Positions 47,993 to 50,372 of a stretch of DNA of 54,964 nt are shown in pieces (position 1 is the stretch's first letter; every line of letters begins with the position of its first letter). The notes under the pieces are model-generated. The model did not search any database. It saw only the letters and a program-made list of their open reading frames with translations, and was not told the DNA's origin. The DNA comes from Acidimicrobiales bacterium. Lineage in GTDB: Bacteria > Actinomycetota > Acidimicrobiia > Acidimicrobiales > RAAP-2. Location of the stretch: NCBI GenBank assembly GCA_017883065.1, contig JADGOG010000003.1, forward strand, positions 1 through 54,964, in the 5' to 3' direction. A program made the translations under genes and the position numbers.

Positions 47993-48552
47993 CCGTCGCC
48001 GTCAGTCGGGGTGTCGCCGACCGGTCCAGCGTCTCCCGTTGCGGAGGACTCCGCCGTCGTGTCTCCCGTCGACCCGCCATTGGTACCGGCCTCCGAAGCG
48101 GCCTGCGCCCCGGCACGCTGGGCGCCGTCGATCTGGACGTAGGCCAGCCGGAGCTGGCTGAGACCGTCCTTGAGCTGCTCCTCGGCCTCGCCGAGCCGTC
48201 CCTCGAGACCGCCGAGTATGGCGCCGAGCGCATCAATGGCCAGGCGGGCCTGGTCGAGCAGCGGGGGCAGTTGGGAGAGGTAGACGGCGGCCAGCTCGAA
48301 GAGGCCGTAGCAGTGGTTGGCCAGCACCACCTCGACGGGCGATTTGGCCAGTTCCTCCCGCATGGCGGCAACCTGCTCTGCGAGGGCTTCCTCGTCCGCC
48401 TCGTCAGCGTCGTCCGTGGATAACGGGGCGTCGGCAGCCGAGCCGCCCGAACCGCCGACGGGACTGCGGGGGCCGCCGTCAGGCGGCGCACCACTGCTCT
48501 GGTCGGGTCGTCCGACCGGTCGTTCGCCATCGGGTGTCCAAAGTGAGCTCAC
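47989..48552 (-). CDS. DUF1844 family protein
   Basis: A 187-aa soluble protein. The core LDQARLAIDALGAILGGLEGRLGEAEEQLKDGLSQLRLAYVQI fits DUF1844, a helical family of unknown function; proteins of this family lie next to infC in other Actinobacteria. The N- and C-termini are Gly/Ser/Asp-rich and probably disordered. The GTG at 48552 has TAGGCT 7 nt upstream (leaderless). It is divergent from infC and coupled to the MFS gene by GTGA. Confidence 0.72.
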   Translation of the reverse strand: MSSLWTPDGERPVGRPDQSSGAPPDGGPRSPVGGSGGSAADAPLSTDDADEADEEALAEQVAAMREELAKSPVEVVLANHCYGLFELAAVYLSQLPPLLDQARLAIDALGAILGGLEGRLGEAEEQLKDGLSQLRLAYVQIDGAQRAGAQAASEAGTNGGSTGDTTAESSATGDAGPVGDTPTDGDG

Positions 48553-48558
48553 GACTGG

Positions 48559-48565
48559 TAGCCTA
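48559..48565. promoter_or_regulatory. overlapping divergent -10 elements (DUF1844/infC)
   Basis: TAGCCTA reads TAGCCT on plus (48559-48564) and TAGGCT on minus (48565-48560), the same heptamer as between menE and menB. On minus it lies 7 nt before the GTG at 48552. On plus it would start the infC transcript near 48571, giving a leader of about 180 nt. Confidence 0.5.
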
Positions 48566-48587
48566 AAGCACTGATAGACGAGGAAGC

Positions 48588-48610
48588 GGGGTCTCTAAGC
48601 AGAGAACCCC
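48588..48610 (+). promoter_or_regulatory. hairpin at the 5' end of the infC leader
   Basis: GGGGTCTCT, loop AAGC, AGAGAACCCC: a nine-pair stem with one bulged A. It lies about 17 nt from the predicted transcript start and 144 nt before the infC start. Confidence 0.55.
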
Positions 48611-48622
48611 CACCTGGCCACA

Positions 48623-48757
48623 ATGGACTTCTCCTGTGTGCGCCGGGTCGATGGGACCGGCATCCGACGTGAGTCGGGCTGTTCGGTGGTGGCTCCGCTC
48701 CTTATTCATCGGCTACGGGAAGTCCGTGGCCCGAAGACAGGGAGTGAAGTCGAATAG
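48623..48757 (+). CDS. possible 44-codon upstream ORF in the infC leader
   Basis: ATG 48623 opens a 44-codon frame (MDFSCVRRVDG...) that ends at TAG 48755-48757, overlapping the proposed AUA start of infC (48754-48756). No good Shine-Dalgarno precedes it and its second half has poor GC3, so it may be chance. If translated it would deliver ribosomes exactly to the infC start. Confidence 0.25.
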   Translation: MDFSCVRRVDGTGIRRESGCSVVAPLLIHRLREVRGPKTGSEVE

Positions 48758-49560
48758 CAGCCACCGTTACCACCAATGAGCCTCGCATCAATGATCGCAT
48801 CCGTGCCCGTGAGGTGCGTCTGGTCGATCCCGACGGAGAGCAGCTTGGCATCAAGTTGCTGCCCGAGGCACTGGCTATCGCCCGTGACCTCGACCTCGAC
48901 CTCGTCGAGGTCGCTCCCGGCGCCAACCCGCCGGTCTGTCGCATCATGGACTATGGGAAGTTCAAGTTCGATGCGGCCCAGCGGGCCAAGGAGTCGAGAC
49001 GCAAGGCGGTCCACGTAGGGATCAAGGAGATGAAGTACCGGCCGAAGATCGGTCCGGGCGACTTCGACACCAAGACCCGACAGGTGGCCAAGTTCCTCGA
49101 AGAGGGTCACAAGGTCAAGATCACCATCATGTTCCGCGGACGTGAGGTCTTCCATCCCGAGTTGGGCAAGAAGATCCTCGACCGCATCGCCGACGAGATG
49201 GACGGCATGGGTAAGTCCGAGTCCGTGCCACGCCTCGACGGACGCAACATGGTGATGGTGCTGGCGCCGGACAAGCGGGCGAAGCAGTCGGCAGCGTCAC
49301 GGGGAACGGGTCACGACCAGGGTGGTCATGACGGCGGTGCTCCGAACGGGTCCACGCCCGACGCAGCGAACGCGGCACCACCGGCACCGGCACCGGCGGC
49401 AGCACCGGCACCCGCAGCAGCAGCACCGGCACCGGCAGAAGCAGCACCGGCGGAAACAGCGCCGGCAGAGAAGTCAGGATCGACGTCGGAGACGTCGGCG
49501 GCGGCACCCGCAACCGGGGAGCACCCTCCGACCACCGGCACGGACGAAGGAGAGGGATGA
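48754..49560 (+). CDS. infC: translation initiation factor IF-3, apparent AUA start
   Basis: IF-3 binds the 30S subunit and discriminates start codons. The ORF-track start (GTG 48814) cuts off the conserved NEPRINDRIRAREVRL segment. In this frame the only open codons upstream, back to a TGA at 48745, are AGT CGA ATA GCA..., so the best start is ATA 48754, with GGGAG 9 nt before it. That gives 268 aa. The body shows LLPEALAIARDLDLDLVEVAPGA, MDYGKFKFD, and IKEMKYRPKIGPGDFDTK. The C-terminus has a ~95-residue Ala/Pro-rich extension, common in actinobacterial IF-3. Confidence 0.93.
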   Translation: MAATVTTNEPRINDRIRAREVRLVDPDGEQLGIKLLPEALAIARDLDLDLVEVAPGANPPVCRIMDYGKFKFDAAQRAKESRRKAVHVGIKEMKYRPKIGPGDFDTKTRQVAKFLEEGHKVKITIMFRGREVFHPELGKKILDRIADEMDGMGKSESVPRLDGRNMVMVLAPDKRAKQSAASRGTGHDQGGHDGGAPNGSTPDAANAAPPAPAPAAAPAPAAAAPAPAEAAPAETAPAEKSGSTSETSAAAPATGEHPPTTGTDEGEG

Positions 49561-49564
49561 CGCC

Positions 49565-49759
49565 ATGCCCAAGATGAAGACAGACAGCGGTGCCCGCAAA
49601 CGGGTCAAGGTCACCGGGACCGGACGCCTCCGTCGCCGAAAGGCGTTCGCTGCGCACCTCCTGGAGGGGAAGTCGAGTACACGGAAGCGCCGACTCGGGC
49701 GCGAGACCGACTTCGCCCCCGGCGACGAGAAGCAGATCAAACGGATGCTCGGCAGGTAG
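49565..49759 (+). CDS. rpmI: ribosomal protein bL35
   Basis: A 64-aa, strongly basic 50S protein. MPKMKTDSGARKRVKVTGTG, then RRRKAFAAHLLEGKSSTRKRRL and KRMLGR at the end are the bL35 pattern. The ATG at 49565 is 4 nt after the infC stop. The ORF-track start at 49322 lies inside infC out of frame. Confidence 0.96.
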   Translation: MPKMKTDSGARKRVKVTGTGRLRRRKAFAAHLLEGKSSTRKRRLGRETDFAPGDEKQIKRMLGR

Positions 49760-49985
49760 CACCCGAGGCGCCTCCAGGTCGCACCGATCGATTTCCGACC
49801 GGGTCCATGCGGTCGTCGGAGGTTGTCCGGCGCGCAGATCCGGTGTGCACCGGCGCTGTCGTCCCGACGTCGCCCGGCCGATCGGACCGTCGCCGGCCCA
49901 GCGTCTCGCCTCATGATGTCCGGGTCCGGCCTCGCCGCCGGTCCCACCCAGTTTCGACAAGGCCCCCCACGAAAAGGAGACCCCC
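49760..49985 (+). other. 226-bp gap between rpmI and rplT
   Basis: rpmI and rplT are usually almost adjacent. I see no convincing ORF, no clear promoter and no U-tract terminator here. It may be a leader that controls rplT. Confidence 0.4.
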
Positions 49986-50372
49986 ATGGCCCGAGTGAAG
50001 CGCGCAGTACACGCCAAGAAGCACCACCGCGCCGTTCTCGAGCAGGCGCAGGGCTACTACGGCAACAAGAGCCGTTCGTTCCGCGCCGCCAACGAGCAGG
50101 TGATGCACTCGATGCAGTACGCCTACCGGGACCGCCGTGCCCGGAAAGGCGACTTCCGTCAGCTGTGGATCCAGCGCATCAACGCCGCTGCCCGCCTGAA
50201 CGGGACCAGCTACAGCCGATTTATCGCCGGCCTCCACCGGGCCGAGGTGGAGGTGGACCGGAAGGTGTTGGCCGATCTGGCTGTCACCGAGCCGGAGGCG
50301 TTCGCCTCGCTGGTCCAGGTGGCCAACGATGCCCTGGCCGATGCCGGGTCTCATGCCGAGGCCGGTTCCTGA
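49986..50372 (+). CDS. rplT: ribosomal protein bL20
   Basis: 50S assembly protein and, in several bacteria, autogenous regulator of infC-rpmI-rplT. The 128-aa sequence begins [26 protein letters not shown] and has [24 protein letters not shown], the bL20 signature. AAGGAG lies 5-6 nt upstream. Its stop overlaps an in-frame CTG (CTGA) of the methyltransferase gene. Confidence 0.97.

Follow-up and report, generated by a model that had tools for sequence, protein, structure and literature searches.

In several bacteria infC, which encodes translation initiation factor IF3, has been described as having a non-AUG start codon. In Escherichia coli infC begins with AUU and IF3 represses its own synthesis, as the initial annotation of the DNA studied here had stated and as the literature bears out (Butler, Springer and Grunberg-Manago 1987, as cited in PMC9845219 and PMC5559785; the ATT start with IF3 autoregulation is also given in PMC5472188). 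AUU starts of infC have been reported as well in Xanthomonas, where there is peptide support (PMC5559785), in Listeria (PMC13068326) and in Bacillus subtilis (PMC6097659). In Streptomyces infC starts with ATC and its annotation is usually wrong (PMC5472188), and in Staphylococcus aureus an AUA start of infC was mapped by retapamulin ribosome profiling (PMC13009471). A further gene of Streptomyces, sigR, has a GTC start that is repressed by IF3, as determined by IF3 overexpression and with infC mutants (PMC5472188). Our literature search found no paper linking Acidimicrobiia with infC.

In this study, we analysed infC in a stretch of 54,964 nucleotides (hereafter the window) from an uncultured actinobacterium of the order Acidimicrobiales. 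Its AUA start is well conserved and joins an established class of infC starts; it does not represent a new mechanism. The locus resembles that of E. coli in having, on the same gene, an SD-led, near-cognate start with a third-base difference from AUG, but the codon there is AUU rather than AUA or AUC, and autocontrol was shown there whereas here we infer it. Streptomyces infC shares phylum, gene and an ATH start with this locus, and gene finders misannotate both, although the Streptomyces codon is ATC whereas ATA is commoner than ATC in the order of the window. The S. aureus gene has the identical AUA codon with SD support, yet belongs to another phylum, and its start was mapped by experiment, ours by comparison. 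The sigR gene is a different gene for which repression was demonstrated; its likeness lies in a third-base-mismatch start under IF3 control within the Actinomycetota, and it resembles the GTA and GTC starts of infC in two families described below.

The infC locus and its reading frame

The window is contig 70 of a draft genome that comprises 3.1 Mb in 235 contigs and whose closest named relatives are Acidimicrobiaceae metagenome assemblies. It contains the gene order infC-rpmI-rplT, and infC is present in a single copy in the genome. Read from ATA, infC (48754..49560, + strand) encodes an IF-3 of 268 residues with the predicted N-terminus IAATVTTNEPRIND..., which matches the TIGR00168 infC equivalog with a score of 208.6 bits (cut-off 60), the match beginning at profile position 2. 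As the initial annotation had stated, the frame has no canonical start ahead of the conserved N-terminus: an in-frame TGA (48745..48747, + strand), which lies within a conserved GGAG-TGA stretch, closes it upstream, and no ATG, GTG or TTG occurs between this stop and NEPRINDRIR. After the TGA at 48745 the codons are AGT CGA ATA (48754) GCA GCC ACC GTT ACC ACC AAT GAG CCT CGC ATC AAT GAT. The claim that the ORF caller, by choosing an internal GTG, drops 20 conserved residues also stood, since a protein started at GTG 48814 scores 187.7 bits, 21 bits less, with profile positions 2–15 and the 20 residues lost. At its other end, C-terminal to the conserved domain, the protein has a long Ala/Pro-rich tail (49285–49557), a region in which the open frames of relatives differ widely in length.

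The GGGAG noted earlier 9 nt before the ATA is part of a Shine-Dalgarno sequence, AGGGAG (48739..48744, + strand), with that same spacing; the anti-SD sequence used here is an assumption, as the exact 16S rRNA 3' end was not found in the organism's own draft genome. SD runs of 4–7 bases precede the start in 162 of 177 order-level loci, the commonest spacing being 9 nt (87/177), and SD-like runs occur in 24.5% of control stretches taken 40–100 nt farther upstream. In 95 of these 177 loci an in-frame stop precedes the start by at most five codons. The conserved TGA that follows the SD in the order loci (GGAG-TGA-T; 48740–48750 in the window) resembles the extended anti-SD complement GGAGGTGAT minus one G, and the full GAGGTGATCAC precedes ATA in some members of the class (L178, L182). 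In S. aureus, extended SDs reportedly aid weak starts (PMC13009471). Overlapping the infC start, an out-of-frame GTG opens a very short frame (48744–48779), and such short GTG or ATG frames are probably by-products of the SD-TGA stretch. Searches for other signals found no Rfam match to an RNA element at E ≤ 1 within 48300–50000 and no sigma-70-like promoter in 48500–48850, and folding of the start region was not better than that of shuffled sequence (z 0.06).

Conservation of the start codon and selection upon it

Comparison with relatives was based on infC loci from family, order, class, phylum and named genome contigs, which were aligned by tblastn at NEPRIND. At order level the start was called by SD strength with a choice among ATA, ATC, ATT and ATG only, so that GTG and TTG could not be returned, and on this basis 119 distinct loci start with ATA and 58 with ATC (n = 177). 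The alignment of the start region across relatives that the initial annotation had proposed as a check thus gave ATA or ATC in 177 of 177 loci, and the printed alignments of the order relatives agree. An earlier automatic call by best SD energy over many codons yielded some spurious GTC, and the order figures exclude it. The case that the annotation had named as refuting its reading, relatives with ATG or GTG in place of the codon at 48754, did not occur among the 177 order-level loci, and independent assemblies carry the ATA, so that the codon is neither a coincidence nor a sequencing artefact. ATT, the choice of E. coli, is absent among the 177 order-level starts, an absence that a simple feedback model does not explain.

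Canonical codons do not offer a conserved alternative. Between the upstream stop and the NEPRIN anchor, 115 of the 177 loci lack any ATG, GTG or TTG, and the in-frame canonical codons near the anchor are few and scattered in the order, except in a sub-clade with GTG at −2, where the GTG sits downstream of an SD-spaced ATC. The second residue of IF3 is Ala in 139 of the 177 loci. The neighbouring ribosomal protein genes served as controls and have ATG starts: rpmI (L35; 49565..49759, + strand) has an aligned first codon of ATG in 182, GTG in three and TTG in two of 190 loci, and the corresponding numbers for rplT (L20; 49986..50372, + strand) are 168, 13 and two of 183.

The direction of change at the start codon was followed on a single infC gene tree, built from a 480-base IF3 core from which the start codon was excluded; its figures are parsimony counts and not formal probabilities. 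On this tree the start codon (48754..48756, + strand) changed at least 16 times, every change being between ATA and ATC, with G and T never gained. For comparison, 26 fourfold-degenerate columns were followed in this gene on this tree; there, changes between A and C make up only 12% of the total, and changes from A lead to G in 46%, to C in 34% and to T in 20%. A change from ATA to ATG was never seen on the tree, though this transition would be expected to be easy. In addition, ATA accounts for 67% of order-level starts (119/177), whereas within the IF3 core 2.6% of Ile codons are ATA, as measured in infC of relatives; therefore, the start does not follow ordinary Ile usage. Judged from sequence, the pattern would be difficult to account for if AUG were not selected against or if the codon served as an ordinary Ile codon. 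It also fits the retention of ATA as a weak start, consistent with a putative self-repression by IF3. Closed frames, SD placement, order-wide conservation, the lack of a conserved canonical alternative and substitutions that avoid AUG together support the AUA at 48754, which is almost certainly the start codon of infC in this actinobacterium.

Self-control by IF3 and competing explanations

We propose, with a probability of roughly 0.88, that initiation at AUA 48754 is carried out by the ordinary fMet-tRNA, guided by the SD and subject to feedback by IF3, both in vivo initiation at this codon and the feedback being predictions from the comparisons above. The initiator tRNA with anticodon CAU would start infC at the AUA, led to it by AGGGAG, and the third-base mismatch of AUA with CAU would cause IF3 to reject the start. 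Such rejection would scale with free IF3, so that infC would be repressed when free IF3 is plentiful and translated when it is scarce, and selection would hold the third base at A or C, preserving the feedback. The genome itself encodes a tRNA-Met with anticodon CAU and an initiator-type GGG...CCC anticodon stem. The base in which AUA departs from AUG is the pairing partner of the first base of the anticodon. Weak third-base pairs are disfavoured by IF3 in vitro (PMC10158994), and this property, along with the autocontrol of E. coli infC, makes the same working as in E. coli most likely. The logic suggested in the initial annotation, that IF3 rejects its own non-AUG start, hence appears to be the best explanation here, with the feedback step as its conjectural part. 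Probably, AUA and AUC have been retained across the order so that IF3 can limit its own production.

Of the competing explanations, the one that survives best, although it is unlikely, is that AUA is a weak start that merely fixes IF3 output at a low level with no feedback by IF3. Weak starts generally lower expression, with ccpN and cvfC1 as cases in S. aureus (PMC13009471). However, an SD or a promoter could equally set a low output, and some lineages would then be expected to have canonical starts, of which none was called in the 177 loci (ATG being the canonical codon that the call could return). Moreover, IF3 itself is the factor that rejects such codons.

Translation from the internal GTG (48814..48816, + strand), the choice of the ORF caller, would deprive IF3 of its first 20 residues and is very improbable. 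This GTG is the first ATG, GTG or TTG in the frame, but the same column in relatives holds GTC in 64, GTG in 40, GTT in 39, GTA in 12 and other codons in two of 157 loci, as is expected of a Val codon rather than of a start. The position of the first canonical codon inside the IF3 core varies widely among relatives, and the part that would be lost is conserved and matches the IF3 profile. An internal GTG start was rejected, as the codon is not conserved.

Still less credible is a frameshift into the infC frame from the out-of-frame frame that opens with GTG 48744 (GTG AAG TCG ... CAA TGA 48779). A GTG at −10 is found in 84 of the 177 order loci and an ATG at −7 in 49, but each is missing from part of the loci, both derive from the GGAG-TGA(TG) stretch itself, and both lie only 0–3 nt from the SD, too near for efficient initiation; a frameshift is not supported by this distribution. 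That an ATG or GTG start is hidden by a sequencing or assembly error has a negligible chance, for although the window is a single contig of a 235-contig draft, independently assembled relatives of 89–96% identity have the identical ATA and SD at the corresponding place, which refutes an error.

Start codons of infC elsewhere in Actinomycetota

Beyond the order, the best-scoring infC starts in the rest of the class were ATC in 28, ATA in 16 and ATT in three loci, with one ambiguous (n = 48). In the remainder of the phylum they were ATC in 33, ATA in 25, ATT in three, GTA in eight, GTC in five, TTG in four, GTG in two and ATG in two (n = 82), some of the GTC, TTG and GTG calls being uncertain. 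Two families have valine-type codons at the infC start position. In family f88 (loci L192-L194, L199, L200, L202, L263, L280, L328-L331 and L342-L369) GTA occupies it in 29 of 29 distinct loci, 25 of which have closed frames without a canonical start. In family f84 (L201 and L332-L341) all 11 loci have closed frames with GTC (eight) or GTA (three) at this position. The start architecture is kept in both families with a well-placed SD, as GAGGAGTGGTGCACA-GTA-GC in f88 and AGGAGGTGATGCGGG-GTC-TC in f84, and their genomes have a tRNA-Met with anticodon CAU and an initiator-type stem. We found no paper in the literature that describes infC as starting with GTA or GTC; for GTC, the known example is Streptomyces sigR.

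Because f88 and f84 combine GTA and GTC with the same architecture and an ordinary CAU initiator, the constant element appears to be the third-base A/C mismatch and not isoleucine. It is therefore likely, though less firmly so than for the AUA start itself, that in much of the Actinomycetota what is conserved is a third-base mismatch with the initiator anticodon CAU (AUA, AUC and rarely AUU, with GUA and GUC in the two families), and that GUA and GUC are genuine IF3-controlled starts at which an ordinary initiator tRNA is used. Apparent canonical infC starts were observed at a few loci: ATG at L322 and L324 and TTG at L326 (all f115), TTG at L323 (f108) and GTG at L325 (f101). The mismatch rule is thus not universal in the phylum, and self-control through the start codon may have been lost in those three families.

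Our analyses correct the start of infC for a large and mostly uncultured order, in which gene callers limited to ATG, GTG and TTG truncate IF3. The order also allows IF3 self-control to be tested cleanly by comparison, as AUA and AUC replace each other at the start whereas AUG does not arise. If the GUA and GUC starts are true, these families would lengthen the list of natural start codons, family-wide and in an essential gene, and would mark the third-base mismatch as the target of selection.
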